In this document: positions 17,693 to 59,174 of the stretch, piece by piece
Position numbering within the stretch: position 1 is the stretch's first letter
Layout of the letters: every line of letters starts with the position of its first letter
The notes under the pieces: generated by a model
Told to the model about the DNA's origin: nothing
The model's input: only the letters and a program-made list of their open reading frames with translations
The model's database searches: none
Translations under genes and position numbers: made by a program
Origin: Andreprevotia lacus DSM 23236
Lineage (GTDB): Bacteria; Pseudomonadota; Gammaproteobacteria; Burkholderiales; Chitinibacteraceae
DNA: 64,000 bases
Assembly (NCBI RefSeq): GCF_900176275.1
Contig: NZ_FWXD01000005.1
Location: 124,001 to 188,000 of the forward strand
Reading direction: 5' to 3'

Positions 17693-17825
17693 ACCGGCAT
17701 CAAGACCCCGGCAAAGCCCGGCTCCTGCCTGCGGTGATGAACGAATCACGGGCACTACGCTGCTTGATGCCACACCCCCGCCCGCGCCGCTGCGAGGGAG
17801 CCTCGCCATTGCCCCTCAGCGGCAG
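17693..17825 (+). repeat. Dispersed two-hairpin repeat, family B (copy B1)
   Basis: Opens with GGCATCAAG and a CCCCGGCAAAGCCCGG-type hairpin. It ends with CCCGCCCGCGCCGCTGCGAG and GAGCCTCGCC..CTCAGCGGC. The same order of blocks is found at 26403-26534 (inverted), 29563-29688, 57019-57149 and, truncated, at 57201-57288. It fills most of the sdaA-glmU intergenic region. Confidence 0.75.
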
Positions 17826-26402: not shown

Positions 26403-26534
26403 GCTGCTGACGAGCATGGCGAGGCTCCCTCGCGCAAACGAGGGCGGGGGGCGTGGAATCAATCAGGAAGAGCCGCTGTTTCACCTTCAGAAACCGGTGA
26501 GAACCCGGCTTTGCCGGGTGCTTGATGCCGGTTT
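26403..26534 (-). repeat. Dispersed two-hairpin repeat, family B (copy B2)
   Basis: Inverted copy between the pseudouridine synthase and threonine aldolase genes. The hairpins CCCGGCTTTGCCGGG (26504-26518) and CCCTCGCGCAAACGAGGG (26427-26444) correspond to those of the other copies. Confidence 0.8.
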
Positions 26535-42319: not shown

Positions 42320-44152
42320 ATGGCCAAGACCACCACGCCAACTGGCGAGAAAAAGACGCGAGCACCACGCAAAGCCAAGGCGCCACTCACTACCCGAGAA
42401 AACCTCTCGGCGCTGATCGGCACTGCCCGCAAGATTCTGCGCAAGGACAAAGGGCTCAATGGCGACGTGGATCGCCTGCCGCTGCTGACCTGGGTAATGT
42501 TCCTCAAGTTCCTTGACGACCTCGAAATCGTGCACGAGGAAGAGGCCGAACTCGACGGCAAGCGCTATCAGCCCATCATCGAAGCGCCCTACCGCTGGCG
42601 CGACTGGGCGGCCAGAGAAGACGGCATCTCCGGTGATGAACTGCTGGCCTTTATCAGCCAGGAATTCGCTGTGCGCGCTGACGGCAATGCCGGCAGGGGC
42701 CTGTTCGCCTATTTGCGTGGTCTTGCGGGTGAGGGCGAAAAAGGCAGCCAGCGTGAAGTCATCGCCAATGTGTTCAAGGGCGTGCAGAACCGCATGGTCA
42801 GTGGCTACCTGCTGCGCGACATCATCAACAAGATCAACGGCATCCATTTCTCGGCCAGCGAGGAAATCCACACCCTCTCGCACCTGTACGAATCCATGCT
42901 GCGCGAGATGCGCGATGCAGCGGGCGATGCCGGCGAGTTCTACACACCGCGCCCGGTCGTGCGCTTTATGGTGCAAGTGACTGATCCGCGTTTGGACGAA
43001 ACAGTGCTTGATCCGGCTTGTGGCACGGGCGGCTTTCTGGTCGAGGCCTACGACCATATCGCGCCACAGGTGGCCACACCAGACCAGCGCCGCGCCTTGC
43101 AGTGCGACACCCTGTATGGGCAGGAAGCCAAGCCGCTACCCTACATGCTGGCGCAGATGAACCTGTTGCTGCACGGCCTGGAAGCACCGCAGATCGCCTA
43201 TGGCAACACGCTGGAGCGGCGGATCAACGAGATCGGCCACGGCGAGCGCGTGGACGTGATCCTTACCAACCCGCCCTTTGGCGGCGAGGAAGAGGTCGGC
43301 ATCAAAGCCAACTTCCCACCCAATATGCAGACGGCGGAAACCACGCTGCTGTTCCTGCAGTACGTCATGCGCAAGCTGCGCGTGGCCGGTGCTCCGGTGC
43401 CAGGCGGCAAACCGGCTGCCCGTGGCGGCCGTGCCGCCGTGGTCGTGCCCAATGGCACCCTGTTTGGTGATGGCGTCTGCGCCGTCATCAAGGAGGAGAT
43501 GCTCAAGGAATTCAGGCTGCACACCATCGTGCGCCTGCCGCAGGGCGTGTTCGCGCCCTATACCGACATCCCGGCCAACCTGCTGTTCTTCGAGCGTGGC
43601 GGCCCGACCGACACCATCTGGTATTACGAGCTGCCGCTGCCGGAAGGCCGCAAGAAGTACAGCAAGACGGCCCCCTTGCAGTTCGAGGAATTCGCGCAGG
43701 CAACATCGTGGTGGAACAACCGGGAGGAAGGCCCGCAGGCCTGGAAGGTGGACTTTGCCGCCAAGCGCGCAGCCGCCGTCGAGGCCGCCACGCCGCATTG
43801 GCAAAAAGCCGAGGCCGCGCGCAATGCCGCCATCGCCCTGGGCAAGCCCATCCGCGAGCTGGAGCAAACCATTCAGGCGGCCACGAATGGCAACAAGGCA
43901 GCCCTGCAAGATCAACTGCGCGCCTTGAAGGCCGAGCAGCAAGCCCATGAGCAATCAGCCAAGGTGGCACAGGCCGAAGGTGACAGCCTGTACTGGCCCA
44001 TTTACAACCTGGACATCAAGAACCCGCACGCCCGCGCCGGACTGGAGCACGCCGACCCGAAAGACCTGATTGCCGCCATGCGCAGCCACGAGGCCGAGGT
44101 CATGCGCCTGCTGGGTGAGATTGAGGCCTTGGTCGCCGAGGTGCAGGCATGA
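42320..44152 (+). CDS. hsdM: Type I DNA methyltransferase M subunit
   Basis: N6-adenine methyltransferase that pairs with HsdS. The 610-residue protein has the N-terminal helical bundle, EFYTPRPVVRFMV near residues 206-218, SAM motif I DPACGTGGFLVEAYDHI at 231-247 and catalytic motif IV NPPF at 317-320. A coiled-coil C-terminus (about 490-560) probably contacts HsdS. It starts 15 bases after hsdR and overlaps the DUF1016 gene start by four bases (ATGA). All key motifs are intact, so the enzyme should be active. Confidence 0.96.
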   Translation: MAKTTTPTGEKKTRAPRKAKAPLTTRENLSALIGTARKILRKDKGLNGDVDRLPLLTWVMFLKFLDDLEIVHEEEAELDGKRYQPIIEAPYRWRDWAAREDGISGDELLAFISQEFAVRADGNAGRGLFAYLRGLAGEGEKGSQREVIANVFKGVQNRMVSGYLLRDIINKINGIHFSASEEIHTLSHLYESMLREMRDAAGDAGEFYTPRPVVRFMVQVTDPRLDETVLDPACGTGGFLVEAYDHIAPQVATPDQRRALQCDTLYGQEAKPLPYMLAQMNLLLHGLEAPQIAYGNTLERRINEIGHGERVDVILTNPPFGGEEEVGIKANFPPNMQTAETTLLFLQYVMRKLRVAGAPVPGGKPAARGGRAAVVVPNGTLFGDGVCAVIKEEMLKEFRLHTIVRLPQGVFAPYTDIPANLLFFERGGPTDTIWYYELPLPEGRKKYSKTAPLQFEEFAQATSWWNNREEGPQAWKVDFAAKRAAAVEAATPHWQKAEAARNAAIALGKPIRELEQTIQAATNGNKAALQDQLRALKAEQQAHEQSAKVAQAEGDSLYWPIYNLDIKNPHARAGLEHADPKDLIAAMRSHEAEVMRLLGEIEALVAEVQA

Positions 44153-45339
44153 CAGCACCCACCGTGCCAACGCCCCAGAATCAGGCCGACTACGTCGCCG
44201 TCCACACCGACATCGTCACGTTGCTGGAGGCGGCGCGTCATGCCGCCGCACGCAGCGTCAATGCGCTGATGACCGCCTCTTACTGGGAAATCGGGCGGCG
44301 CATCGTCGAGTTCGAACAGGGCGGGCAGGAGCGGGCCGGGTATGGCGAGGCAATGATCAAGCGGCTTGGAGGCGATTTAAGTCGCCAGTTCGGGCGCGGC
44401 TTTGGCTGGCGCAATCTGGCCCAAATGCGCACGTTCTACCTTGCTTGGCCAGCCGACCAGATTTTGCAGACACTGTCTGCAAAATCTCCAGCCCCCAAAA
44501 TTCGCCAGACGCTGTCTGGCGACTTGGCTGCGGGCCCTGTGCCCGGCACGCCTCGGCAATCCATCGACCTGGCGGCGCTGGCACAGGCCTTTCCGCTGCC
44601 GTGGTCGGCCTATGTGCGCCTGCTCTCGGTCAAGAACCCGCAGGCCCGCGCCTTTTATGAAACCGAGACGCTGCGTTGCGGCTGGTCGGTGCGCCAGCTC
44701 GACCGCCAGGTGGGCAGCCAGTTTTACGAACGCACCGCCCTGTCGCACAACAAGGCGGCGATGCTGGAAAAGGGCGAAGTGGCCGAGCCTGGCGACGCCA
44801 TCACGCCCGAGCAAGCCATCAAAGACCCCTTCGTGCTGGAGTTCCTCAACCTCAGGGACGAGTATTCCGAGTCCGACCTGGAAGACGCCCTGATTCAGCA
44901 TCTGGCCGACTTCCTGCTGGAACTGGGCGACGACTTCGCCTTTGTCGGCCGTCAGCGCCGCCTGCGGCTGGACGACACCTGGTTCCGCGTTGACCTGCTG
45001 TTCTTCCACCGCCGACTCAAGTGCCTGCTGATCATCGACCTCAAGATCGGCAAGTTCAGCCATGCCGATGCAGGGCAGATGCACTTGTATCTGAACTATG
45101 CCCGCGAGCACTGGATGAAACCGGGCGAGAACCCACCCGTTGGCCTGATCCTGTGTGCAAGCAAGGGCAGCAACGAAGCCCATTACGCCCTGGAAGGTCT
45201 GCCAAACAAGGTACTGGCTGCGGAATACCAGACCGTCCTGCCGGATGAAAAGCTGCTGGCCGAGGAACTCGACAAGACGCGCCGGGAGCTGGAGGCAAGA
45301 CGGGCCGGGCGCGGTGGCGATGTGGAGGGGGACGTATGA
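44149..45339 (+). CDS. DUF1016/YhcG-family PD-(D/E)XK nuclease within the hsd locus
   Basis: A 396-residue protein of the YhcG family. The N-terminal DUF1016 helical domain (about 20-195, SYWEIGRRIVEFEQGG near 44-59) is followed by a PD-(D/E)XK nuclease core: Glu245 in SDLEDALIQHL, Asp282 in WFRVDLLFFH and Asp297-Leu-Lys299 in LLIIDLKIGKF. The gene overlaps both hsdM and hsdS by four bases each, so it is fully built into the restriction-modification operon. Its function there is unproven; extra cleavage or abortive defence are possible. Residues 104-124 (ILQTLSAKS and IRQTLSGD) are encoded by two palindromes. Confidence 0.9.
   Translation: MTAPTVPTPQNQADYVAVHTDIVTLLEAARHAAARSVNALMTASYWEIGRRIVEFEQGGQERAGYGEAMIKRLGGDLSRQFGRGFGWRNLAQMRTFYLAWPADQILQTLSAKSPAPKIRQTLSGDLAAGPVPGTPRQSIDLAALAQAFPLPWSAYVRLLSVKNPQARAFYETETLRCGWSVRQLDRQVGSQFYERTALSHNKAAMLEKGEVAEPGDAITPEQAIKDPFVLEFLNLRDEYSESDLEDALIQHLADFLLELGDDFAFVGRQRRLRLDDTWFRVDLLFFHRRLKCLLIIDLKIGKFSHADAGQMHLYLNYAREHWMKPGENPPVGLILCASKGSNEAHYALEGLPNKVLAAEYQTVLPDEKLLAEELDKTRRELEARRAGRGGDVEGDV
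44461..44522. repeat. Two palindromes inside the DUF1016 coding sequence
   Basis: 44461-44485 is a perfect 25-base palindrome with arms ATTTTGCAGACA and TGTCTGCAAAAT around a central C. 44502-44522 has arms TCGCCAGAC and GTCTGGCGA around GCT. Both carry the core CAGAC..GTCTG and encode QTLS. They lie at the junction between the N-terminal helical part and the rest of DUF1016. Confidence 0.8.
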
Positions 45340-46505
45340 AGGCGTGGCCCTTGGTGAAGCTCGGGGATTTGCTTGAGCAGATCGACCGCATGGAGAGAGT
45401 TGATCCCAACGCAACCTATCACCTGCTTGGAGTGCGTCTCGAAGGAAATGGCCCTTTCATCCGCGAAACAGTCACAGGTGCAGAGACATCGGCCGGGCGT
45501 CTCAATCAGGTTCAGTCGGGCGACTTCATCTACAGCCGTTTGTTCGCTTGGCGCGGAGCGTTTGGGGTTATCACAGACGCAATGGACGGCTGCTTTGTCT
45601 CCAACGAGTTCCCCATTTTCCGTACCAATCAAGAACGCCTTGATGTGGGTTACTTGGCCAGATGGTTCCAGTTGCCAAACGTGTGGCGGAAAGTTGAGGA
45701 AAACTGCACAGGTAGCACGCCAACCACGCGCAACCGCTTCAAGGAGCAGTTCTTCTTCGATCTAGAAATCCCACTCCCTCCGTTGACCGAACAACAAGCC
45801 CTCGTCGCCCGCCTCGACGCACTGGCCGAGAAAGCCCGGCAGGTCGAAGCGCATCTGGATGCCGTTGAGCGCGATGCCGAGCGTCTGATCCGCAGCTACA
45901 TATTTGGCCGCGAGGGCGAGCGGCCGGTGAAGCGCCGTATGTCGGAGCTGGTCTCGCAACGACAGCCAGATGTGGCCGTGGACGGCACAGCCCAGTACCG
46001 TTTTGCGGGCGTCTACTCCTTCGGGCGAGGAGTGTTCCCCAGTGCGATCAAGATGGGCAGCGAGTTTGCCTATCAACGGCTGTCCACCGTTCGTGCCGGC
46101 GATTTCATTTATCCCAAGCTGATGGCCTGGGAGGGTGCGTTGGGCGTCGTGCCGCCAGGGTGCGACGGCATGGTGGTGTCACCCGAGTTTCCGGTATTCA
46201 CGGTCAACACTGAAGCCGTGCTGCCCGAAGTGCTCGACATCTACTTCCGCACGCCGGAAGTCTGGCCAACACTGGCGGAGATTAGTGGCGGCACGAATGC
46301 CCGTCGCCGTCGATTGCAGCCTACCGCCTTCCTCAGTTATGAGATGCCGGTGCCCCCGATGGACAAGCAGCTTGAACTCCGCGCCATCTACCAGCATGCA
46401 CAGACCCTCAAGGCCAAACACTCAGCGATCCGCGAAGCCAATGCCGCACTGCTACCCGCGACGCTGGAGCGCGTTTTCTCGACCGGAGTGACCGACCATG
46501 CCTGA
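45336..46505 (+). CDS. hsdS: Type I restriction-modification specificity subunit S
   Basis: Determines the DNA target of the HsdRMS complex. The 389-residue protein has two target-recognition domains (about 1-150 and 195-350), each followed by a helical spacer: LPPLTEQQALVARLDALAEKARQVEAHLDAVE split across 148-178, and VPPMDKQLELRAIYQHAQTLKAKHSA near 342-367. Both recognition domains share GDFIYSRLFAWRGAFGV / GDFIYPKLMAWEGALGV, a typical internal duplication. It overlaps the DUF1016 gene by four bases. The recognition sequence cannot be read from the protein. Confidence 0.92.
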   Translation: MKAWPLVKLGDLLEQIDRMERVDPNATYHLLGVRLEGNGPFIRETVTGAETSAGRLNQVQSGDFIYSRLFAWRGAFGVITDAMDGCFVSNEFPIFRTNQERLDVGYLARWFQLPNVWRKVEENCTGSTPTTRNRFKEQFFFDLEIPLPPLTEQQALVARLDALAEKARQVEAHLDAVERDAERLIRSYIFGREGERPVKRRMSELVSQRQPDVAVDGTAQYRFAGVYSFGRGVFPSAIKMGSEFAYQRLSTVRAGDFIYPKLMAWEGALGVVPPGCDGMVVSPEFPVFTVNTEAVLPEVLDIYFRTPEVWPTLAEISGGTNARRRRLQPTAFLSYEMPVPPMDKQLELRAIYQHAQTLKAKHSAIREANAALLPATLERVFSTGVTDHA

Positions 46506-47520: not shown

Positions 47521-47808
47521 ATGTTTGTTGTTTTGCTCGAATTTGCTACCAACAAAAGCCAGGCAGCCCACTTTATGGAAGGGCACAAGGCGTGGCTGCA
47601 GCGCGGCTTTGATGACGGGGTGTTCCAGTTGTCGGGCAGCGTCCTGCCTGCTGCGGGTGGTGCGGTGCTGGCGCACGGTGTGACGCGGGCCGAGCTGGAA
47701 CAGCGCGTGGCGCAAGACCCTTTCGTGGCCGAGGGTGTGGTCGGCGCAAAAATCATCGAGATTGCGCCGTCGCGCGCCAGCGAGCCATTGGCCTTCTTGC
47801 TCGCCTGA
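47521..47808 (+). CDS. YciI-like family protein
   Basis: A 95-residue protein with a ferredoxin-like alpha/beta layout typical of the YciI family: MFVVLLEFATNKSQAAHFMEGHKAWLQ at the start (in part), DGVFQLSGSVLPAAGGAVLA near 34-53 and the AQDPFVAEGVVGAKIIEI closing near 69-86. The His and Asp residues at HKAWL and QDPF correspond to the putative active site. A strong TTGGAGGTG ribosome binding site precedes the ATG at 47521. It follows tetR by 49 bases and is likely under its control. Substrate unknown. Confidence 0.85.
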   Translation: MFVVLLEFATNKSQAAHFMEGHKAWLQRGFDDGVFQLSGSVLPAAGGAVLAHGVTRAELEQRVAQDPFVAEGVVGAKIIEIAPSRASEPLAFLLA

Positions 47809-47852
47809 GCCGGATAGCAAGAGCCGCACCTCAAATTGCCAAGGAGGCACTC

Positions 47853-48401
47853 ATGCACTGGAGCATCGATCGCTACGCGCAGGCGTGGCATTTCGCCACC
47901 TTGCACCATATGGGGCAGACTTACGGCGGCACCCGGCCGGATGAGCGCATTCCCTATATCAACCACATCGCCAGTGTGGCGGCCGAAGTGCTGTGGGGCT
48001 GTGGGCAGGACAGCGGTCTGGATGTCGATCTGGCGCTGCAGTGCGCGCTGTTGCACGACGTGGTTGAGGATACGCCCGCAACGGTCGAGGAGTTGGCGCA
48101 GACCTTTGGCCCGGCCGTGGCTGCCGGCGTGCTGGCTTTGACCAAGAATGAGCAGTTGCCCACCAAGCAGGAACAGATGGCGGACAGCTTGCAGCGCATT
48201 TTGCAGCAGCCCCGGGAGATCGCACTGGTAAAGCTCGCCGACCGCATTACCAATCTCTATCACCCACCGTATTACTGGAGTGATGAGAAGATCGCGCAAT
48301 ACCGCATCGAGGCGAGCCTCATTCTGGATGCGCTGGGCCACGCCAGCACCCCGCTGGCCGCGCGACTGACCGACAAGATTGCTGCTTACGGTCAGGCATG
48401 A
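47853..48401 (+). CDS. HD-domain hydrolase, MESH1/SpoT-like
   Basis: A 182-residue single-domain HD protein. The metal-binding set is visible as His38 in IPYINHIASVA, His68-Asp69 in ALLHDVVEDT and Asp130 in KLADRITNL; the first and ED residues (Glu72, Asp73) match the (p)ppGpp hydrolase family. No synthetase, TGS or ACT domains are present, so it resembles the small alarmone hydrolases (MESH1 type). (p)ppGpp or NADPH hydrolysis is possible but not shown. An AAGGAGG ribosome binding site precedes it. Third gene of the tetR-yciI-HD group. Confidence 0.8.
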   Translation: MHWSIDRYAQAWHFATLHHMGQTYGGTRPDERIPYINHIASVAAEVLWGCGQDSGLDVDLALQCALLHDVVEDTPATVEELAQTFGPAVAAGVLALTKNEQLPTKQEQMADSLQRILQQPREIALVKLADRITNLYHPPYYWSDEKIAQYRIEASLILDALGHASTPLAARLTDKIAAYGQA

Positions 48402-48544
48402 ACCCGGGGCAACCGGGGAGGCGTGCAGATTCGCAACAGAACGCCCCCTATATCCTCCGCTGAGCATGCTGTTGTTGCAAGGAATTGGAAAGCTCAATTA
48501 GGGTAAGCATCCCGTGAAAATGACTACCCACAAGTGAGTTTGCC
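48394..48544 (+). promoter_or_regulatory. Conserved leader, copy 1, before DUF4034-like gene 1
   Basis: Shares with 50653-50805 and 54760-54896 the blocks GCAGATTCGCAACA, GTTGCAAGG, GAAAGCTCA.TTAGGGTA and GACTACC, ending at the start codon. GCAAC near 48433 and GTTGC near 48474 can pair in all three copies. A promoter reading TTGCAA (48475-48480), 18 bases, TAGGGT (48499-48504) is possible. The similarity begins inside the stop region of the HD gene. Confidence 0.55.
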
Positions 48545-50629
48545 ATGCTGGTTTCCGAGCCCTCCGTTGCTCAACAACTTGCCGATCAAGGGCTGCTGGT
48601 GTTGCGCGACCGTTTGCGTGTACTGGCTGCGGCGGGTGACGTGCAGCGCGTCGAGAAGATTTACCAGTTGCTGGAGCAGGACTGGTGGGCGGCGGCCAAG
48701 CCGGATGATCGTCCTTATGAAGCGGTGTGTGCCGAGGGGGCGCTGTTCGATACCCGGCAAGTGGCCGGGCCGCAGCGGCTGGCCTTTCTGCATGCCTGGG
48801 TGCAGGCCTGCCCCGAGTCGTATCACGCGCACTTGATGCTGGGTATTTATGCATTGAGACGTGCGCAGGATTTTCGCGGTGGTGACTGGGCGCAGCAGGT
48901 CAGCGATGCGCAGTGGCTGGCCGCTGCCGTAGCTTGCGAGCATGCCGTGGTGCATTTTTGCGAAGCCATGCGCTGTAATCCGCGTGCGGCCATCGCCTAT
49001 GCGAACATGTACGAGATCGCCTCGCGCTTTTCCGAGCCGGATTGGCTGGTGGCACTGTTTGCCGGCAGTAGCGACCCGGATGCGCGCCCCGAGGCGGATG
49101 AAGCCACCTGGCAGGCGGCGGCCGAATTGTTCGAGCCGGCCGGCCTGATCCCGCTGGATGTGGTGACCACCGAGCTGCCGCGGGGATTGCCGCTGCGTGC
49201 CGAACATGATGCCGACGACGGTGCGTTGTACTGGGTGCAGCAGGCGGCGCAGGCGCGCCCCAACTGGCTGGGCATCGTCACCAGCTATGCCTTTTACCGC
49301 ACGCCGCGCTGGGGTGGCAGCCACGAAGAGATCGAACAGTTTGCCCACGGCCCCTTGTGTGCGGGCCTGAATGAAGCCGAGCGCAATGCGGTGCGCTGGA
49401 TGGGCGCACATGACTATTTCTCTGCCTTTCACGATTGGGCGCTGCCTGAGCCGGGAGCTGAATCGCAGATCCGCCAGTGGCATGCCCAGTTCCAGCCCTG
49501 GCTGACCACGCCGCTGCCGCCCGCACACCGCCGCCACATGCTGGAATTGTGGGCATGCTTTCATGGCAAATCGCTGCAGCAGCCCGAGCAGGCGGTACGC
49601 ATTTACATCGAGGCCTTTTCGCAAACCCCGCAGGATCTGGCTTTCGGCCCTTCCAGCAACTACGGCCACGACTTCATCTATCAGTTTCTGCGCCACCGCC
49701 AGGAGGCGCCGGCCGAATTCATGCGCGCGCTGTTCGAGCAAGCGGCCGGCAACAACAACTACGCAGCGCTGCTGGCATGGGCCGCAGTGGCATACCGTTT
49801 CGGCATGTGGGGCGTTGCAGCGGACCCGGCCAGGGCCGAAGCCTTGCTGGATGCAAGCGCGCAGCAAACCGCCGACGAAAGCGACGGGTTGACGACAGAA
49901 TCGCTGGAAGGCCTGCTGTGGGAGGCCGGCTATCACGAACAGGCGCTTTGTGTGGCACGCGGGCTGGCACAGCGTGATTGCGCGTCGTCGTGTGCCTATC
50001 TGTACACCCTGCTGCGCGTGCGTGATGCGGATGACGACCCGGTGCCATCCTCGGCTGTCGCAGCGCCGTTCTATCAGCCGCAGCCTTATCGCAACCAGCA
50101 TGAGGCATTGCGCTGGCTGGAGCGCGGGGCCGAGTTGGGCGCACCGCTGGCGGAATACAACTTTGCCTATCACATGACCGAGCAGCCGGAGTACGACCTG
50201 AGCCGCCCGGAGCAGTATGAACGCTGCAAGACCCTGTTCCTGAATGCAGCCCACAAGGGCTTGCACCAGGGTTGGCTGCAATTGGGCCGCGTGATGCTGA
50301 CGCATGGCAATGCCGACGAACAGCGCGATGCGATTGCCAAGCTGCTGCGGCCATACGCGCTGGACGACGACCGAAGCACCAGCGCACGCGCCTGGGCCAT
50401 GACCGATCTGGCCAAGGCCTATCGCGATGGCCGTGGCGTGCCCAAGAGCCTGCATGCGGCCAAGGCATGGATTACCCGCGCGCAGGAGCTGGCGCCCGAT
50501 GATGGCTGGATCGGCGAATTGCACGGTGAGCTGCACGGCGGCGGTTCGCTGCTGGGGTCGGTGTTTGGCGCCTTCCGTGGCAGCGACAAGCTGGCGGCAG
50601 AGCACTACCCGCCCGGCATGCACGACTGA
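48545..50629 (+). CDS. DUF4034-like protein with Sel1-type repeats, paralogue 1
   Basis: A 694-residue cytoplasmic protein of unknown function; no signal peptide or membrane helix. Residues 1-200 resemble DUF4034 (LHAWVQACPESYHAHLMLG, EHAVVHFCEAMRCNPRAAIAYANMYEI). The C-terminal third carries Sel1/TPR-like helical repeats (RNQHEALRWLERGAELGAPLAEYNFAYHM, then LFLNAAHKGLHQGWLQLGRVML, then AMTDLAKAYRDGRGVPKSLHAAKAWI, each in part) that suggest protein-protein contacts. It ends AEHYPPGMHD, identical in paralogue 2 at 54897-56981. Most positions match between the two, and both have exactly 694 residues. It may be an envelope, secretion-accessory or conflict-related protein. Confidence 0.75.
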   Translation: MLVSEPSVAQQLADQGLLVLRDRLRVLAAAGDVQRVEKIYQLLEQDWWAAAKPDDRPYEAVCAEGALFDTRQVAGPQRLAFLHAWVQACPESYHAHLMLGIYALRRAQDFRGGDWAQQVSDAQWLAAAVACEHAVVHFCEAMRCNPRAAIAYANMYEIASRFSEPDWLVALFAGSSDPDARPEADEATWQAAAELFEPAGLIPLDVVTTELPRGLPLRAEHDADDGALYWVQQAAQARPNWLGIVTSYAFYRTPRWGGSHEEIEQFAHGPLCAGLNEAERNAVRWMGAHDYFSAFHDWALPEPGAESQIRQWHAQFQPWLTTPLPPAHRRHMLELWACFHGKSLQQPEQAVRIYIEAFSQTPQDLAFGPSSNYGHDFIYQFLRHRQEAPAEFMRALFEQAAGNNNYAALLAWAAVAYRFGMWGVAADPARAEALLDASAQQTADESDGLTTESLEGLLWEAGYHEQALCVARGLAQRDCASSCAYLYTLLRVRDADDDPVPSSAVAAPFYQPQPYRNQHEALRWLERGAELGAPLAEYNFAYHMTEQPEYDLSRPEQYERCKTLFLNAAHKGLHQGWLQLGRVMLTHGNADEQRDAIAKLLRPYALDDDRSTSARAWAMTDLAKAYRDGRGVPKSLHAAKAWITRAQELAPDDGWIGELHGELHGGGSLLGSVFGAFRGSDKLAAEHYPPGMHD

Positions 50630-50652
50630 TCCATCCCTGCGCCAGGCGCGGC

Positions 50653-50844
50653 CAGGCATGACCCCGGGGCCAACGGGGCGGTAGCGTGCAGATTCGCAAC
50701 AAAACCGCCCCCTTCTGCCCCGTTGGCGATGCGGTGGTTGCAAGGTGTCAGAAAGCTCATTTAGGGTAGGTATCCAGAGAGAACGACTACCCCAGCGAGC
50801 TTGCCATGTCCGTTTCCCAGCCCACCAAAGCCCAGCAGCTGGCA
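50653..50844 (+). pseudogene. Leader copy 2 plus broken start of a third DUF4034-like gene
   Basis: The leader 50653-50805 matches copies 1 and 3. From the ATG at 50806 the first 13 codons (MSVSQPTKAQQLA) match the start of paralogue 2 (MSVSQPSKAQQLA), after which similarity stops at about 50845. The following sequence belongs to the 3' flank of an oppositely oriented glycoside hydrolase gene. This is the remnant of a third gene copy, lost by deletion or displaced by insertion. Confidence 0.8.
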
Positions 50845-50893
50845 GCGATCTGGCCGGCGTCGATATCGCCCCGACCGCTGCCGGCCCTTGCGC

Positions 50894-52168
50894 TCAGCGC
50901 AGCAACACAACATCGTCCGGCATGCGTGGCAGCGTCGTTGCGGGGTCGAAGCCGGTCAGCGTGGTGCTGGTGCCGTCGAGGAATTCGATCCGGCTGTAAC
51001 CCTCCTTGCTCCAGGCGGCCGAGGGTTTGCCCGGGCCCCAGTAGATGGCGCCTAGCTTGCTCTTGCCGTCGTACACCTCGCAGGACATCGCCGTGCCGGC
51101 ATCGGTGCAATTGCGCAGATAGCGGCCGCCCAGCCAGCCGTGCAGCACCGCCAGCGCCCGGCCGAAGTTGTTCAGGCGGTTCTGGCGCTTGTCTGCCATG
51201 GTCGAGCCCATCCACGAGGTATCGTGCGCAAACCAGTAGGTTCGTTCCACGCCGAGGTTGTGCGACACGACCAGCATCTTGGCGGCCAGACGTGCGGCAT
51301 CGTCGCTCTGGAAGCTCTTGCTGAGTGGCCCTTCCTTGAATTTGGGCTGCAAGTTGTAGCCGGCCTCGGCGACAATGACGCCCGTTTCCGTATCCCAGAC
51401 CGGGGTTTTGGCCAGGCCATAGCCGGCCTTGATGCGGTTGGTTTCTTCCACCATGTCGCGTAGTTCTTTCACGGTCTGGCGCGGCAGGTAGTAGTGAAAG
51501 CCGATCACGTCGCAGTACTGGCCGGCACCCGTTTTCAGAAAGGCATCCAGGCGCTTCAGGCCGTCGAACCCGTCCATGCTCGGGCAGACAATCTTGGCAG
51601 TCGGGTCGATCCTGCGCACTTCGGTGGCGGTGATTCTGGTCAGTTCCGCCAGCTTGGCAGCACTGCCCGAGAAAAAGCCTGGTGACCAGACTTTGACTGC
51701 CTCGGGCACGCGCGGCTCGTTCATCACCTCGTAGGCCGATATCTTGCCCTTGTAGCGCGTGGCTACTGTGCGCACGTAGCGCGCCCAGTCTTCCATGTCT
51801 GCCGGCTCGGCCGCTGCGCCGGGGCCGGTGTTGCCCTGTTCATCCGGCCGTGCCGATGCCCAGAGCGGGGTCTGGCCCAGCGTGTGCATCAGCGGCAAGT
51901 GGCGCGCCTGTGCAGCGGCAACGTGCTCGTCGAAGCGCTTGAAATCGAACTGGCCCTTCTGTGGCTCGATTTCGCGCCAGGTGGTGCCTTCAGCCCCCCA
52001 GATGCGCAGACCGTCGAACAGATTGTCCTGCAGGCCGTCAAAGGTGCGGTTATAGAGGATATGCTGGCCCAGAAAGACGGGACGTTCCCCTTGGGGCGCA
52101 GCGTGTGCAATGCCTGCAGACAGCGCAAGTGCAGCCAGAGCGAGGCGCGGGTTCATGAGGTAGATCAT
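50894..52168 (-). CDS. Secreted GH39/PslG-like glycoside hydrolase
   Basis: A 424-residue exported protein with signal peptide at about 1-23 (cleavage after AHA). It has the (beta/alpha)8 clan-A layout: WREIEPQKGQFDFKRFDEHV near 64-83, the acid/base Glu151 in YEVMNEP and the probable nucleophile Glu261 in VWDTETG. This pattern fits GH39 and relatives such as PslG, which cut exopolysaccharides. Start 52168 has AGGT at a fair distance; an ATG at 52156 is an alternative. It lies beside an OafA-type acyltransferase on the same strand, suggesting polysaccharide processing. Substrate unknown. Confidence 0.8.
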   Translation of the reverse strand: MIYLMNPRLALAALALSAGIAHAAPQGERPVFLGQHILYNRTFDGLQDNLFDGLRIWGAEGTTWREIEPQKGQFDFKRFDEHVAAAQARHLPLMHTLGQTPLWASARPDEQGNTGPGAAAEPADMEDWARYVRTVATRYKGKISAYEVMNEPRVPEAVKVWSPGFFSGSAAKLAELTRITATEVRRIDPTAKIVCPSMDGFDGLKRLDAFLKTGAGQYCDVIGFHYYLPRQTVKELRDMVEETNRIKAGYGLAKTPVWDTETGVIVAEAGYNLQPKFKEGPLSKSFQSDDAARLAAKMLVVSHNLGVERTYWFAHDTSWMGSTMADKRQNRLNNFGRALAVLHGWLGGRYLRNCTDAGTAMSCEVYDGKSKLGAIYWGPGKPSAAWSKEGYSRIEFLDGTSTTLTGFDPATTLPRMPDDVVLLR

Positions 52169-52232
52169 ATCGGCGACCTGGAAATGAGCGGCGTCCTACA
52201 CTAGCGCCTCGCCCCGCTTGGGACAAGTTAAC

Positions 52233-54401
52233 TTATTGCAAACTTGCCGAATCGACAGCCAGTGTTTGATCGATGTAAGTCGCGTTGTCCCGCACATAGA
52301 ACGGCCGCATGTGTTCATGGTCCATGAAGTGTGGCTCGCCGTCGTTCGACATGGCCGGGCAGATCGAGCCCCGGCATAGTGTGGCAATCGGGTCTATCAC
52401 CCTGGCGCCATGGCGGGTGGCAATGTCGCGCAGGCGCGCCCAGATGGCCGCGTTCTTTTGCTGGAAGGCGCTGATGTCGACCATGGGCGTATCGTGGCGG
52501 CGCGACAGCGTGGTCCAGCGTGAGCCGTTCAGCATGCTTTTGGGTGAGAAGCGCTCATCCTTGGGCGAATTGAGCAGCAGATAGACCTGCTTGGTCTGCG
52601 CGAGCGATGCCACTTCCTTTTCCAGTGCGGCAAACGCGGCATCGACGGCACCCGGCTCGCCGAATGGAATCTGGCGCCCACCCGACTTGAACATCAGCTC
52701 GGCATTCTGCGGGTTCAGATAATTGTCCCAGTTGCCACCGATGACCACGACTTTCACATCGTCGCGGTGGGCAAGCTCGTACGATCCGGCCGCCACGCCC
52801 GGGCAGGCGGCGTGCGTGTGCGTCGCGATGTGGAACACGCCGGGCACGGCCGGGCAGCCGGGGCCGGTGGCAAAGATGACGGAATATTGCGGGCGCGGGT
52901 TTTCGGTCAGTAGCCGGTCGACGCGCGCTGCGTATTGCTCGACGATGGAATCGCCAATGAACACGACATAGTGCGGGTCGGTGCCAGCGCGCGTATAGAA
53001 GCTCGGCCCCGTTGCGGCCAGTTTCTTGAAGTTGCGCGGGGGGAAGTCCCAATCGTACTGCGCGGCGAGCAAGGCATCGACATCGCGCGTGGTGCTGCGT
53101 GCGCCCAGCAGGCCGCCAAACATGGCCAGACCGGCAAGGCACAGCGCGGCCATGCCTGCATACAGACCGGTCAGCGCGGCACGATTGCGCTCGCGCGATG
53201 CTTGCGGGTTCGGGCGGCGCAGGCGTTGCTCCACCAGGCGGTAAGTGGCCCAGGCCAGCACGAATGCTGCCCCGATCAGCGCAAAGCGCAGTTCTTTCGA
53301 CATATTGCCGGCAAGGATGCGGCCGAAGGCAAGCAGCGGCCAGTGCCAGATATAGAGGGGATAGCTGATCAGGCCTATACCTGCCATGACACGGTTGCCC
53401 AGCACAAAGCGGTTGACCACGGCCTGCGGGCCGGCTGCGATCAGCAGCATGGCGCCCAGCACCGGCGGTACGGCCCACCAGCCGGGGAAGGCATGCGATT
53501 TGTCCAGCGTGTAGATGGTGTGCGCCAGCAGTGCGGCACCCGTCAGCGAGCACGCATGCCGTGCGGCCATGGCGCTGCGCTGCCCGGCAAAGGCCCGGCC
53601 GATATCGGCATGGCCCCTGACCGTGACGGCGTAGGCAAGGCCGGCGCCGCCCAGCAGCTCCCAGAAGCGTGTAAACGGCAGGTAGAAGACCGCGTCGGCA
53701 TACTGCGCAATGCCATATACGTTGGCCGCGAACGAAGTCGTGGCAATGACCGCGCCGACCACCAGCAGGTTCAGGCGGCGACGCCACGCGGCCCACAGCA
53801 GCAGCGGCCAGACGATGTAGAACTGCTCCTCGACGCCCAGCGACCAAAGATGCAGCAGCGGCTTGGCGTCGGCCGCCGTGTCGAAGTAGCCCGTTTCCAG
53901 CCACAGCGCGACGTTGGCCACAAAGCCAGAGCCGGCGGCGATGTGTTTGCCCAGCATGGCAAATTCGTCCGGCGTCAGCACATACCAGCCGGACAGGGCT
54001 ACGGTCACCAGCATCACGATCAGTGCCGGAAAGATGCGGCGTGCGCGGCGCGAGTAAAAATCGACAAAGCTGAAGCTGTTGTTCCGCAGGCTGCCAAACA
54101 GGATGGACGAGATCAGGAAGCCCGAAATGACGAAAAAGATGTCGACGCCGACATAGCCGCCGGCCAGCCAGCGCGGAAAGGCATGGAAAATGACCACGGC
54201 CAGCACGGCCACGGCGCGCAGGCCATCGATGTCCGGCCGGTATGCCGGGTGTGCCGCAGCATGCCCGTCGCCGAGCGCCGGTGCAGCCGTACTTGCGCTG
54301 GTGGCCGGGCTGCCCCGCTGGCCGGCTGCGTTGCGGTTTCTGGCATGGATGTCTGTGCCGCCGTCATTGCCCGGCGCGATGTATTCGGTGCTGTTCATCA
54401 T
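52233..54401 (-). CDS. OafA/YrhL-type acyltransferase with C-terminal SGNH domain
   Basis: A 722-residue inner-membrane O-acyltransferase. After about 50 low-complexity residues comes the acyltransferase-3 domain: YRPDIDGLRAVAVLAVVIFH near 53-72, GGYVGVDIFFVISGFLIS near 80-97 and FYSRRARRIFPAL near 114-126, with about ten membrane helices up to residue 420. The periplasmic SGNH esterase-like domain has the GDS block VVFIGDSIVEQYAARV near 495-510, GGNWDNYL near 570-577 and the catalytic Asp-His region ending in EPHFMDHEHM. Such proteins acetylate LPS, peptidoglycan or exopolysaccharide. The start chosen is the first of two adjacent ATG codons. Confidence 0.9.
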   Translation of the reverse strand: MMNSTEYIAPGNDGGTDIHARNRNAAGQRGSPATSASTAAPALGDGHAAAHPAYRPDIDGLRAVAVLAVVIFHAFPRWLAGGYVGVDIFFVISGFLISSILFGSLRNNSFSFVDFYSRRARRIFPALIVMLVTVALSGWYVLTPDEFAMLGKHIAAGSGFVANVALWLETGYFDTAADAKPLLHLWSLGVEEQFYIVWPLLLWAAWRRRLNLLVVGAVIATTSFAANVYGIAQYADAVFYLPFTRFWELLGGAGLAYAVTVRGHADIGRAFAGQRSAMAARHACSLTGAALLAHTIYTLDKSHAFPGWWAVPPVLGAMLLIAAGPQAVVNRFVLGNRVMAGIGLISYPLYIWHWPLLAFGRILAGNMSKELRFALIGAAFVLAWATYRLVEQRLRRPNPQASRERNRAALTGLYAGMAALCLAGLAMFGGLLGARSTTRDVDALLAAQYDWDFPPRNFKKLAATGPSFYTRAGTDPHYVVFIGDSIVEQYAARVDRLLTENPRPQYSVIFATGPGCPAVPGVFHIATHTHAACPGVAAGSYELAHRDDVKVVVIGGNWDNYLNPQNAELMFKSGGRQIPFGEPGAVDAAFAALEKEVASLAQTKQVYLLLNSPKDERFSPKSMLNGSRWTTLSRRHDTPMVDISAFQQKNAAIWARLRDIATRHGARVIDPIATLCRGSICPAMSNDGEPHFMDHEHMRPFYVRDNATYIDQTLAVDSASLQ

Positions 54402-54759
54402 GGAGGCTCTGGCCGGGCGGTAAATCCCGTACGCCGTTGCTGCGCCGGCTGGCTGGCGCGGAGGGACGAAGGCCCGCACGCTGCAAGTGCAGCAGCTGCA
54501 CATCCGTCAAAACCCGGGATTGCCAAGCCGCAATTTGCATTGCAGTTGTCAAAGCCTGGGGAAAATTGTCGGAAATCTTAACAGTCATGCTGCATTTTCG
54601 ACAGGCATTCGGCATGTAACTGTTGGTACGTGCAACAGGATTGTTTGGCAGGTTTCTGTCATGTCGCTGAAATGACGAGGTGACGGTATCTAAGCAGGCG
54701 GCAAAGTCGGGGGCATTCCAGTGTGTCGGCAGGTACTCTTGCCCCCAAATATCGCACCA
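54402..54759. other. Gap between the acyltransferase and leader copy 3
   Basis: About 360 bases upstream of the acyltransferase gene, which must contain its promoter. I see no gene, repeat or clear terminator. It is less GC-rich than the flanking genes around 54535-54700. Confidence 0.45.
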
Positions 54760-54896
54760 CCCGCGTTGACCCCGTGCAGATTCGCAACAAAACAGCCCCC
54801 TTCCACCCCGTTGGTGATGTCGCGGTTGCAAGGTAAAAGAAAGCTCATTTAGGGTAGGCCTCCAGAGAGGATGACCAACCACAAGCGAGTTCGCCC
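54760..54896 (+). promoter_or_regulatory. Conserved leader, copy 3, before DUF4034-like gene 2
   Basis: Matches copy 2 especially closely: GTGCAGATTCGCAACAAAAC, CCCCGTTGGTGATG, GGTTGCAAGGT, GAAAGCTCATTTAGGGTAGG and the GAGTT/GAGCT-CGCCATG end. Conservation over about 110 non-coding bases suggests a functional promoter or RNA leader shared by the paralogues. Confidence 0.6.
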
Positions 54897-56981
54897 ATGT
54901 CCGTTTCCCAGCCCTCCAAAGCCCAGCAGCTGGCAACGCACGGCGTGCGTGCGCTGCGTGATCGTTTGCGCACCCTTGCGGCGGCGGGCGATGTGCACCG
55001 GGTGGAAATGATTTACCGCCTGCTGGAGCAGGGCTGGTGGGAGGCGGCCAACCCCGACGAGCACCCCTATGTGCCGCTGTGCCGCGAGCCAGCGCTGTTC
55101 GATGGTGCCGTGGTACCCAGGCAGGAGCGGGTGGCGTTTTTGCAGGCGTGGGTGCAGGCCTATCCCGACTCCTATCATGCGCACCTGATGTCGGGCGCGT
55201 GCGCCCACATCCGGGCGCGGCAGTTTCGCGGCCGGGGCTTTGCCAAAGAGGTAAGCGCGGTGCAGTGGCTGGCCGCAACGGTGGCGGCCGAACATGCCGT
55301 GGTGCATTTCTGCGAAGCCATGCGCTGCAATCCGCGCGCGGCCATGGTCTATCTGCACATGTACGAGCTCAGCGCGCGTTTTACCGAGCCTGGCTGGCTG
55401 GTGGCGCTGTTTGCCGGCCGCAGCGACCCGGATGCACGCCCCGAGGGGACCGAGGAAGAGTGGCAAGAGGCCGTCGGCACCCATCTGATGCCATCGGGCC
55501 TGATGCCGCTGGATGACGTCCCCGCCGCGCTGCCGCCCGGTTTGCCGCTGCGCGCCGAGCACGATGCAAAAGACGGCCGTCTGTACTGGGTACAGCAGGC
55601 AACGCGTGCCCGGCCCGACTGGCTGGAAATCCTCACGACCTATGCGTTTTACCGCACGCCGCGCTGGAGCGGTGGCAGCCACGAAGAGATCGAGCAGTTT
55701 GCCCACGGCCCCCTCTGCGCCGGGCTGGGCGAGCCGGCGCGCAATGCGGTGCGCTGGGTGGGCGCGCATGACTATTTCTCGGCCTTTCACGAGTGGACCT
55801 TGCCCCCGCCCGGTGCCGAATCGCAGCTCCGCCGCTGGCAGGCCGAATTCCAGCCCTGGCTGACCATGCCGCTGCCGCCTGCGCAACGCCGCAGCGTGCT
55901 GGAGCTATGGGCCCATTTCCATGGTTACTCGCTCGATCAGCCTGCCAAAGCCGTGGAAATCTACGCGCAGGCTTTTGCGCAAACCCCGGCGCAGATTGCC
56001 TTCGAATCCGACAGCTGGAATGGCCATGACTTTCTTTACCAGTGTCTGCTCCACCGGCTGGCGGGGCCGCCCGAGCTGATGCGCACCCTGTTCGAGCAGG
56101 CGGTGGCCAATAACGACTATGCCGGGCTGCTGGGCTGGGCGGCGGTGGCCTATCGTTTCGGCATGTGGGGGGTAGCGGCAGACCCGGCTAGGGCAGAGGT
56201 CATCCTGGCTGCTTGTGCCGTGCGCACCGCAGAAGAGCTCTACGGATTGCAGACCGATACGCTTGAGACGCTGCTGTGGGAATCGGGCTATCACGAGCAG
56301 GCGCTCTATCTCGCGCGCGGCCTGGCCGAGCGCGATTGCGCCACTTCGTGTGCCTGCCTGTACAACCTGTTGCGCGAGCGCGAGCCGGATGAAGAGCCGG
56401 TGCTCTCGGCGGCCGTGGTCCCGTTTTACAAGCCGCATCCCCATCGCAACCAGCAAGAGGCGATGCGCTGGCTGCAACGTGGCGCCGAGCTGGGCGCACC
56501 CAATGCGGAATACAGCTTCGCACACCAGATGACCGTGCAACCGGCCTACGATCTGCGCCGGCCCGAGCACTATGAACGTTGCAAGGAATTGTTTTTCAGC
56601 GCGGCGCGCAAGGGCCTCGGCATGGGGGGGGTGCGCGGCGCGCGGGTGATGATTGCTCACGGTGGGCACGACGAGCAGCTGGATGCCGTCAACAAGGTGT
56701 TGCGGCCCTATGCGCTCGACGACGAGCTGGATGCCTACGATCGCGCCTGTGCCATGTACGATCTGGCCAAGGCCTATCGCGATGGCAGCAGCGTGCCGCA
56801 GAGCCAGCATGTGGCCAAGGCCTGGATTACCCGCGCGCGCGAGCTGGCACCTGATGACCACTGGATCATCAAGCTGCATGCCGAGCTGCACGGCGGCGGC
56901 TCCTTGCTGGGCTCGCTGCGCAATGCGCTGCGCCACAACAGGCTGGCGCCGGAACATTATCCGCCGGGCATGCATGACTGA
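54897..56981 (+). CDS. DUF4034-like protein with Sel1-type repeats, paralogue 2
   Basis: A 694-residue paralogue of the protein at 48545-50629, in the same strand and behind the same leader. It keeps the DUF4034-like N-terminal part (LQAWVQAYPDSYHAHLMSG, EHAVVHFCEAMRCNPRAAMVY), the invariant middle (YRTPRWSGGSHEEIEQFAHG, GAHDYFSAFHEW, AYRFGMWGVAADPARAEV) and the Sel1-like C-terminal repeats. Residues invariant between the copies cluster in the middle and at the very end (PEHYPPGMHD). No catalytic motif is recognisable. Duplicated copies with conserved leaders imply retained function and common regulation. Confidence 0.75.
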   Translation: MSVSQPSKAQQLATHGVRALRDRLRTLAAAGDVHRVEMIYRLLEQGWWEAANPDEHPYVPLCREPALFDGAVVPRQERVAFLQAWVQAYPDSYHAHLMSGACAHIRARQFRGRGFAKEVSAVQWLAATVAAEHAVVHFCEAMRCNPRAAMVYLHMYELSARFTEPGWLVALFAGRSDPDARPEGTEEEWQEAVGTHLMPSGLMPLDDVPAALPPGLPLRAEHDAKDGRLYWVQQATRARPDWLEILTTYAFYRTPRWSGGSHEEIEQFAHGPLCAGLGEPARNAVRWVGAHDYFSAFHEWTLPPPGAESQLRRWQAEFQPWLTMPLPPAQRRSVLELWAHFHGYSLDQPAKAVEIYAQAFAQTPAQIAFESDSWNGHDFLYQCLLHRLAGPPELMRTLFEQAVANNDYAGLLGWAAVAYRFGMWGVAADPARAEVILAACAVRTAEELYGLQTDTLETLLWESGYHEQALYLARGLAERDCATSCACLYNLLREREPDEEPVLSAAVVPFYKPHPHRNQQEAMRWLQRGAELGAPNAEYSFAHQMTVQPAYDLRRPEHYERCKELFFSAARKGLGMGGVRGARVMIAHGGHDEQLDAVNKVLRPYALDDELDAYDRACAMYDLAKAYRDGSSVPQSQHVAKAWITRARELAPDDHWIIKLHAELHGGGSLLGSLRNALRHNRLAPEHYPPGMHD

Positions 56982-57018
56982 GCGCCGCGTGTTCTGTTTG
57001 GCTGTACCTGCGCGCATG

Positions 57019-57149
57019 CGGCATCAAGCACCCGGCCAGGCCGGGCGCGCACCAGTGTTGAAGGGCGATACAGCGGCGCTGCCCTGCTTTAATCCACACC
57101 CCCCGCCCTCGCCGCCGCGAGGGGGCCTCGCTGTGCTCGTCAGCGGCAG
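57019..57149 (+). repeat. Dispersed two-hairpin repeat, family B (copy B4)
   Basis: Follows DUF4034-like gene 2. It has GGCATCAAGCACCCGGCCAG, CAGCGGCGCTGCCCTGC, CCCGCCCTCGCCGCCGCGAG and CTCGTCAGCGGCAGG in order. Together with its upstream 35 bases it is repeated in tandem at 57162-57288. Confidence 0.8.
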
Positions 57150-57200
57150 GAATGACATTGCCGGGTGCCGCGTGTTCTTTTTGCCTGTACCTGCGCGCGT

Positions 57201-57288
57201 GCGGCATCAAGCCCCCGGCCAGGCCGGGCGCGCACCAGTGTTGAAGGGGAATGCAGCGGCGCGCTCCTGCTGTGTTCCACACCACTCG
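57201..57288 (+). repeat. Truncated family B repeat (copy B5)
   Basis: Tandem partial duplicate of B4, carrying the first hairpin (CCCGGCCAGGCCGGGC) and CAGCGGCGCGCTCCTGC but lacking the second hairpin. Both copies share the preceding GCCGCGTGTTCT and CTGTACCTGCGCGC. Confidence 0.7.
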
Positions 57289-57326
57289 CAGTCGCAAGGC
57301 GCTAGCCGGCCTCGGGCCAATCTTCC

Positions 57327-59174
57327 ATGCAGGCAACCATGAGCAACGCAGCGCGTAGCCCCGATCACGATGACGCCCGCGCCGAGCCGCGCGCCCGCAT
57401 GCTGGGCTGGCTGCTGCTGGGTGATGTGGCGGTCTATGGCGTGATCGTACTGCTGTTCAGCCTGCCGCTGCTGGCTGGCTGGCTGGGGGGCATGTTGTGG
57501 TTCTGGGTGCTGGTGTTTACCGTCTCCTGGCCGGGCGTGGCCTATGTGCGCTTGCTGCTGCAGGCGCGGCGCGCCGAGCCGGATACGCAGGAAGCGGACG
57601 AGCTGCTGGTTGACCCGGCCAGCGTGCCGGTGCTGGCTGGCGTGCTGCGCGAGATCGAACAAGGGTTGGGCATGCGGCATGGCACGCAGATCGCGCTGGA
57701 TGGCCGCATGAATGCCAGCATCCGTCTGGTGCAGCAGGGGCGGCGGCAGCGGCGCCGGCTGACCATCGGCCTGCCGGTGCTGCTGGCGCTGGACGAGCCA
57801 TGCTGCCGCGCCATGCTGTTGCATGAATGCGCGCATCTGGCGCGCGAGCATGGCCGCTGGTCGCAGTGGTTCCATGTGCGCTTGCAGTGGTGGCGGCGGC
57901 TGGCCGATATCCACCGGCAGAACCACGCCATGTTTACCGTGCCGCTGCGTTTGTTCCTGCGCTGGTATGTGCCACGCCTGTGGCTGCGCCGGCTGGCTTT
58001 TTCCCGCGTGTGCGAGCGCATGGCCGACCAGTGGGCCGTCCAGCAGGGGGGCGCTGCGGCAGGGCGCTTGCATCTGGCGATGGCGGTGCAGGACCGCACG
58101 CTAAGCAACTATTGGCAGACACTGTATGCCGGTGCTGGCCGGCAAGGGATAGCCGCGGTGACGCCATATCAAATGCTGCTGAGCGTGCCGCAACATGCAT
58201 TGCCGGTTGATCAGGCGCAGGCGCGCGCCTGGCTGGATGCTGCGCTGGCAGAGCCTGCCGCCGAGGGCGATACCCACCCGGTCTTGCTCGAGCGCCTGCA
58301 GATGGCCGGTGTGCACCCCGGGCAACTGCCGGCAGACTGGCCCTGGCAATGGCCGGCCCGCCCGGCTGCCACCGTCTGGCTGGGCAAGGCGCTGCCGGCG
58401 CTGGCCGCGCGGCTGGATGAGCACTGGCAGCAAGCGGCCGAGCCTTACTGGCAGCAGGCCGCCGATGCGGCCGGCGCGCGCACGGCGGAGTACCACGCCA
58501 CGCGGCGGCGGCAGCAGATCCAGCGCCTGAACGCCGATGACTGGTTTGTGCTGGCTGTTTACCAGCGCGGGCAGGGCGCGGCTGAGTGGGTCGATGCCTT
58601 GCGGCAGGGGCTGGCGCTGGATGCGCGCCATGCCGGCCTGAACCGCCTGTTGGCCGAGCAGACCGCCAAGCGGGGCGACTGGGCTGCGGCCAGCCGGCGC
58701 TGGCAGATCGTGCTGGCCGATCCCGAGGCCGAGCGCGAAACCCCGCTGTGCGAGCTGCTGGCCTGCGCGCTGCGCCTGACCGACACGGCGCTGGCCACCT
58801 GGTGCCGCAGCGAGCTGGCGGCGCTGTATGTCTACGCCGAGTCGCCCGAGCTGTATCCGCACGGGCTGGGGCAGGCCGAGCTGGCCAAGGTGCGCAACGA
58901 CCTGGACTTGCTGCTGCGCAGCGCCAACGCGGTGTGGCTGTTTCGCCAGTCGGAAGACGCCGCTGCGCCGGAGTGGTTGCTGCTGATCAAGGCCTGGGAT
59001 GACTGGCTGCTGCGCACCGTGGCCAACGCCACCGGCCAGATCGAAGCCACCCGCGCGGCCTGCAACCGCCTGCTGCCCGAGGTACTGGGCAAAACCCATC
59101 TGAAACTGGCGGTGGATTATCTGCTGCCCGGTGATGTGCGCTTGGCTGCCTGCGTGGACGCCGCCAAACTGTAG
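57327..59174 (+). CDS. M48-family membrane metallopeptidase-like protein
   Basis: A 615-residue protein. Two membrane helices lie at about 26-52 and 54-78, followed by a zinc-protease domain with HECAH (His166-Glu167-x-x-His170) in AMLLHECAHLAREH and the third ligand probably Glu230 in VCERMADQWAV. The C-terminal half (about 350-600) is helical and TPR-like, with no catalytic motif. An alternative ATG at 57339 would remove four residues. M48 enzymes include HtpX and BepA-type quality-control proteases; this protein's longer tail sets it apart. It is downstream of the second DUF4034-like gene but separated by repeats. Confidence 0.82.
   Translation: MQATMSNAARSPDHDDARAEPRARMLGWLLLGDVAVYGVIVLLFSLPLLAGWLGGMLWFWVLVFTVSWPGVAYVRLLLQARRAEPDTQEADELLVDPASVPVLAGVLREIEQGLGMRHGTQIALDGRMNASIRLVQQGRRQRRRLTIGLPVLLALDEPCCRAMLLHECAHLAREHGRWSQWFHVRLQWWRRLADIHRQNHAMFTVPLRLFLRWYVPRLWLRRLAFSRVCERMADQWAVQQGGAAAGRLHLAMAVQDRTLSNYWQTLYAGAGRQGIAAVTPYQMLLSVPQHALPVDQAQARAWLDAALAEPAAEGDTHPVLLERLQMAGVHPGQLPADWPWQWPARPAATVWLGKALPALAARLDEHWQQAAEPYWQQAADAAGARTAEYHATRRRQQIQRLNADDWFVLAVYQRGQGAAEWVDALRQGLALDARHAGLNRLLAEQTAKRGDWAAASRRWQIVLADPEAERETPLCELLACALRLTDTALATWCRSELAALYVYAESPELYPHGLGQAELAKVRNDLDLLLRSANAVWLFRQSEDAAAPEWLLLIKAWDDWLLRTVANATGQIEATRAACNRLLPEVLGKTHLKLAVDYLLPGDVRLAACVDAAKL

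Follow-up and report, generated by a model that had tools for sequence, protein, structure and literature searches.

The window analysed here is a 64,000-nucleotide (nt) stretch of the Andreprevotia lacus genome, and positions given below are those of the whole stretch. It carries two full genes of the DUF4034 family (gene A and, further along, gene B) together with the remains of a third copy, and gene B is followed by a gene for an M48 metallopeptidase. The array is real and old, if not spectacular. The useful new lead is the DUF4034-M48 pair, which recurs in Pseudomonas, in Rhizobium and within the window's own order, there in two families; an earlier note on this DNA had described the array and omitted the peptidase gene downstream as well as its recurrent linkage to DUF4034. 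The name DUF4034 was not found in the literature searched (a library with few subscription journals and no bioRxiv preprints), and therefore any functional link is useful. The tight, recurrent pair points to a testable role for DUF4034, and the M48 peptidase gains a candidate partner.

One reading best joins the order of the genes with their near overlap, the separate doublings of DUF4034 and the predicted fold: DUF4034 proteins would be cytosolic solenoid adaptors or regulators that partner a membrane M48 peptidase, the locus described here being an expanded form of this module. We hold this reading tentatively, as one that may well prove wrong.

The recurrent DUF4034-M48 gene pair

Gene neighbourhoods were compared over 61 DUF4034 loci (60 neighbourhoods and the window). 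Left out of this census were matches weaker than 1e-15 in the relatives sample and two matches at E ~1e-17, one on G011 C3 (L031) and the other the second match of Chitinilyticum piscinae (L030). An M48 gene directly follows DUF4034 at seven loci: those of the window, of G048 (from a different family in the window's order), of P. brassicae and three further members of its genus, and of a megaplasmid of Rhizobium lusitanum. Five of the 61 have one DUF4034 gene and then M48, and two, G048 and the window, have two DUF4034 genes and then M48. Within the genus of P. brassicae, the pair is present in 4 of the 22 DUF4034-bearing genomes. At each of the six M48-linked loci other than the window's, a codon that could start M48 is placed between -4 and +8 nt from the DUF4034 stop, although other in-frame starts exist; such near-zero spacing would be as in a tightly packed operon. 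The seven linked peptidases all have HExxH, ExxAD and HPxxxxR motifs and hydrophobic N-terminal stretches. Tandem DUF4034 pairs occur at two of the seven M48-linked loci versus none of the other 54 (Fisher p 0.011), a weak result that ignores kinship.

By its motifs (H166ECAH, E230RMAD and H317PVLLER, with H317P318 and R323) and its Pfam M48 score of 30 bits against a cut-off of 20.3, the window protein is an M48 metallopeptidase with the full motif set. Its hydrophobic stretch at residues 23-67 has room for two membrane segments and carries basic residues on both sides. Since basic residues flanking membrane segments mark the cytosolic side (the positive-inside rule), this suggests that the catalytic domain faces the cytosol. 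The C-terminal half has no Pfam match of its own; the Pfam search listed no TPR families for this peptidase, whose structural model has a predicted local distance difference test score (pLDDT) of 43. Two other peptidases, from P. brassicae and G744, score above the cut-off for TPR_19.

The predicted fold of DUF4034 is an alpha-solenoid of the TPR/Sel1 type. The model of protein B is all-helical, with 33 helices and no strand (pLDDT 81.7, predicted template modelling score, pTM, 0.72). Foldseek returned nine rows at E<=0.001 for this model: eight Sel1-type proteins, among which we count LpnE, presumably of that type, and one TTC7B/Hyccin. The top matches are Sel1 proteins (LceB, c5321 and Oxalobacter Sel1 proteins, E 1e-5). 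TPR proteins are also among the structure matches. The highest VIA Z, 13.8, is no more than helical repeats can give one another by general arrangement. In sequence, profile matches to Sel1 proteins fall in the C-terminal half (best E 1.2e-15), and the best stretches span just profile positions 455-637 of 682. The earlier note had pointed to Sel1-type repeats and from them to a protein that interacts with others; the helical model and the Foldseek matches bear out the likeness, whereas Pfam Sel1 (PF08238) itself scores 28.4 and 25.3 bits in A and B, under its cut-off of 30.7. Neither A nor B has a hydrophobic segment. The family-conserved P255-R256-W257 and S261 are placed in a short loop of the B model, of which 256-261 is among the least confident stretches, and this loop would be a first candidate place for a binding site.

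Several observations weigh against the proposed partnership. First, at 50 of the 61 loci neither M48 nor PcfJ/DUF1266 stands alongside DUF4034 (at one of these, L097, the contig ends 121 nt past the DUF4034 stop, and M48 is possible there), and at four more, in Salmonella, Chitinilyticum and two Burkholderia, DUF4034 comes third, after a PcfJ-like gene and then a DUF1266 gene. DUF4034 therefore needs no M48 in cis. Second, the M48-linked DUF4034 proteins are not one clade, and the tree requires at least three changes of this label. Third, the peptidase gene of the window starts 345 nt after gene B, beyond two copies of a repeat, so that co-transcription of the two is not assured. Moreover, three of the seven peptidases themselves went into the M48 profile, the other four being independent finds at E 1.2e-127 or better, and the peptidase model is poor, which leaves the topology to hydropathy and charge alone.

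A possibility somewhat less probable than the partnership is that DUF4034 is a stand-alone housekeeping or stress gene, duplicated in the window and kept in two copies by subfunctionalisation, with M48 as an incidental neighbour. The 50 loci without a partner gene, the 345 nt between B and M48, the scattering of the M48-linked proteins over the tree and the purifying selection on both copies, described below, are all consistent with it. However, DUF4034 is linked to M48 repeatedly, in G048 and the window as well as in Pseudomonas and Rhizobium, and the spacing is near zero at six of the six other loci. In addition, a gene that we take to be comM, named by eye from the protein start, lies near the Pseudomonas pair L109 and near four of the five listed solitary Pseudomonas copies (adjoining at L093, L101 and L105, about 2.8 kb away at L092, and not near L112). 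The shared neighbour suggests that these solitary copies lost M48 from an older pair. A role of DUF4034 proteins as inhibitors or substrates of the peptidase, and not as client adaptors, is unlikely, although the order of DUF4034 and then protease with near overlap would also suit an inhibitor or a regulated substrate. At 50 loci without a protease gene there would be nothing to inhibit in cis; otherwise, little in the data separates these two roles.

The PcfJ-like/DUF1266/DUF4034 trios lie at L029:6744-10813, L062:4702-8782, L063:4997-9037 and L065:4714-8782, and their DUF4034 proteins form a branch of their own (support 100/99). The PcfJ match is under the Pfam cut-off in the three proteins tested. 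The PcfJ and DUF1266 profiles were built from three of the trios, and the one in B. arboris is the sole independent find. A near-DNA search of E. coli with the Salmonella trio gave no match.

Origin and age of the DUF4034 array

The array and its neighbours are laid out as follows:

47853-48401: HD-domain gene, upstream of leader 1
48422-48529, + strand: leader 1, from pairwise DNA similarity
48545-50629, + strand: DUF4034 protein A, 694 residues, from open reading frame and PF13226
50685-50792, + strand: leader 2, its own gene body gone, from DNA similarity
50806-50844, + strand: stump of the third copy, 13 codons from the ATG at 50806, 38 of 39 nt as in gene B
50894-52168, - strand: GH10/GH5-like glycoside hydrolase gene, in the place of the third copy's body
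52233-54503, - strand: acyltransferase-3 and SGNH gene, second gene of the intervening block
54773-54880, + strand: leader 3, from DNA similarity
54897-56981, + strand: DUF4034 protein B, 694 residues, from open reading frame and PF13226, predicted all-helical solenoid
56973-57295, + strand: repeat of about 130 nt, two copies, spanning the 3' end of gene B and the gap before the peptidase gene
57327-59174, + strand: M48 metallopeptidase gene, 615 residues, from Pfam M48 and the motif set

Proteins A and B have the equal length and orientation described in the earlier note, and its wording "mostly identical" fits an alignment over the full length with 475 of 696 identities (68-69%), which does not make them near-copies. 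Its family name also stands: PF13226 (DUF4034) matches A and B at E 3.4e-61 and 6e-54, with 207.5 and 183.7 bits against a cut-off of 21.3, over profile positions 4-273 and 5-269 of 274, which establishes membership.

A tree built on 42 DUF4034 proteins pairs A with B as sisters, with support 100/100. They share 69% identity with each other and about 31% or less with the other relatives measured. Since each is thus the closest relative of the other, the array is the product of local duplication of a leader-plus-gene unit, much as the earlier note had supposed for a promoter-plus-gene unit. The two DUF4034 proteins of G048 are also sisters (100/100), and the doublings in the window and in G048 look independent, in a tree whose program warns of long branches that include those of G048 and the Rhizobium row. 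The situation that the earlier note had set against an array, single-copy orthologues elsewhere and without the leader, was not seen: the leader was found in none of the 60 relatives searched, protein B as query brought up just relatives at 26-30% identity, from two genomes, and the two congeners gave no hit in the family search.

The duplication of A and B is old, and both copies have been held under purifying selection. The divergence is dN 0.21 and dS 0.87 by NG86 and dN 0.20 and dS 1.17 by YN00, so that silent sites are near saturation while dN/dS is about 0.2 overall; in overlapping segments of 90 codons it ranges from 0.19 to a maximum of 0.41. Only 146 of 262 fourfold-degenerate sites are identical (56%), which rules out a recent amplification. 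Positions that vary between A and B are also less conserved in the family than positions at which they agree (mean 0.39 vs 0.49 in 42 rows, with A and B among the rows, which slightly favours this result). Residues 242-332 of B have a lower A-B dS (0.47) than other segments (0.57-1.05), perhaps through gene conversion.

The earlier note had taken the array as a sign of selection on copy number or for diversification, as might be expected of genes with a part in conflict, antigenicity or immunity. The clustering of three leaders at a single site would fit this idea, as would a patchy distribution in which the family is absent from two congeners and present in 6 of the 398 genomes sampled across the phylum, the window's own included. 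It is nevertheless very improbable: no segment has a dN/dS above 1, or indeed above 0.41, and the silent sites are far diverged. Strong tandem pairs were found in just two of 56 DUF4034-bearing genomes, the window's own (G000) and G048; the 56 are a hand count over four samples with duplicates removed and the relatives sample taken at E<=1e-15. A defence or phage origin was likewise rejected, since the five proteins tested matched no families among the PADLOC models and protein B had no match in phage records; the leader, too, is found at one locus only in its own genome and the 60 relatives.

The family is patchy in the other samples as well. DUF4034 is present in 10 of 61 genomes of the relatives sample (own genome included, E<=0.001, weak matches counted) and in 2 of 369 of the class sample (own genome included, searched with the full-length profile and with no more than three candidates per genome scored). 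With one match each, it is present in 27 of 91 genomes of the genus of G334 (Stenotrophomonas), and for the genus of P. brassicae the count is 22 of 298. One relative of the same family that carries it is C. piscinae (G020; Neisseriales, Chitinibacteraceae in NCBI). In G006, two short DUF4034-like frames adjoin each other, both weak and under the 1e-15 limit. The window's own genome has a weak third match in a 335-residue frame (L003, G000:C41:59484-59822, E 0.002), which scores 27.7 bits, above the cut-off, when the neighbouring matches of the frame are included. An 820-residue profile match at G000:C41 was rejected as a plain Sel1-repeat protein.

Leaders and the lost third copy

Three leaders are present, as the earlier note had said, although "near-identical" was too strong: over the alignable part, identity is 93/121 for leaders 1 and 2, 91/123 for leaders 1 and 3, and 102/121 for leaders 2 and 3. 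The similarity of leaders 1 and 2 starts at 48395, within the last codons of the HD-domain gene. In a search of the whole genome, leader 3 gave E values of 1e-20 and 8e-48 with the two remaining leaders, which excludes chance likeness; its further matches there were just three of 17-24 nt (E 0.2-0.7).

The leaders are more conserved than the fourfold sites of the genes (one-sided Fisher p 4e-5, 4e-4 and 2e-8). Because their conservation exceeds that of silent sites, we infer that they may be shared promoter or 5' control DNA that keeps the copies under common control. Two results speak against such a role: a sigma-70 scan of 47800-57400 found no promoter-like site, and the fold-energy z-scores of the leaders (-0.34, -2.15 and -0.11) are ordinary in two of three copies. 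An arrangement TTGCAA-18-TAGGGT is visible by eye in the leaders and fails the rule of the scan. A structured RNA leader was considered and finds little support: the fold energies are as just given, Rfam had no hit to the leaders at E<=1, and two-sided change was seen at 1 of 35 predicted pairs, a covariation count from three sequences only. Just 5' of the start codon, leader 1 has an inverted repeat, AGCTCA..TTAGGGTA / TACCC..GTGAGTT (about 48487-48542), which is less perfect in leaders 2 and 3 and could mask the ribosome site.

The third leader with 13 codons of the gene, reported between the two copies, is there as described: leader 2 is followed by the stump, after which homology to gene B breaks off abruptly (50844). 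No 3' remnant of the third copy was recognised within 50800-54772. Leader 2 has 5 private changes, leader 3 has 9 and leader 1 has 18, so that the leader without a body shows no excess. This would be expected if the loss of the body is recent, if leader 2 is still functional or if sequence passes between the leaders. The stump is nearly identical to gene B, yet the leaders before them are just 84% identical; perhaps the 5' coding end belongs to the control region, or it was exchanged.

The GH10/GH5-like gene has relatives of 44-45% identity elsewhere in its own genome and in one congener. The HD-domain gene with leader DNA was not found in two congeners, by a search without a positive control, and an empty site was not seen. 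The two repeat copies after gene B (56973-57112 and 57156-57295) are 84-87% identical, and belong to a G+C-rich dispersed repeat of about 90-140 nt with further partial copies at 26439-26530 and 17695-17787, 71-87% alike overall. Slightly upstream of the array, at 42320-46505, are genes that we take from their translations to be hsdM-like (type I restriction), DUF1016-like and hsdS-like.

A proposed module and its known parallels

In the partnership that we propose, DUF4034 would be a cytosolic helical solenoid that binds client proteins and either delivers them to, or restrains, an inner-membrane HP-plug M48 peptidase with a cytosolic catalytic domain. The leader-plus-DUF4034 unit would have been duplicated long ago in the lineage of the window, and A and B would most simply have been kept for the same peptidase with different clients or conditions. 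A third copy, nearer to B, would have lost its body, in whose place the glycoside hydrolase and acyltransferase genes now lie, while its leader stayed; the conserved leaders would act as promoter or 5' control DNA that holds the copies under shared control. The doubled A and B offer a natural comparison of partner specificity. A bolder version is a long shot: A and B would be dedicated receptors for different clients of one cytosol-facing M48 peptidase, such doubling would have happened at least twice, and leader 2 would be a working promoter, antisense into the glycoside hydrolase gene, tying the control of that gene to the array.

Other PF13226 proteins, such as those annotated in Salmonella, Burkholderia and Pantoea, have the same N-terminal domain and a similar length. 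In Salmonella, two Burkholderia and Chitinilyticum the DUF4034 gene comes after a PcfJ-like and a DUF1266 gene, whereas in the window it is doubled and comes before M48. Sel1-like repeat proteins resemble the model of B in fold and differ in sequence beyond the C-terminal part, with Pfam Sel1 under its cut-off.

Among M48 peptidases, the BepA/HtpX type has HExxH, a downstream Glu and HPxxxxR in common with the window peptidase. For BepA, these zinc-ligand and plug residues have been described, and substrate recognition by the other E. coli M48 peptidases is said to be unclear (PMC7950410). As presented there, BepA is periplasmic with a fused TPR domain; in contrast, the window peptidase begins with a hydrophobic stretch near its N-terminus, and the solenoid is encoded by a gene of its own upstream. 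A precedent that may work in a like manner is LbcA-CtpA of Pseudomonas aeruginosa, in which a separate TPR-spiral protein is the partner of a protease and may bring it substrates (PMC8764530). It differs from DUF4034-M48 in protease family and in compartment, and the LbcA structure (7rqf) matches the B model at Z 10.2 as the last of the best 50 rows, one of many solenoids. BepA and LbcA-CtpA show that proteases can be directed by helical-repeat modules, neither of them being claimed as kin of DUF4034.

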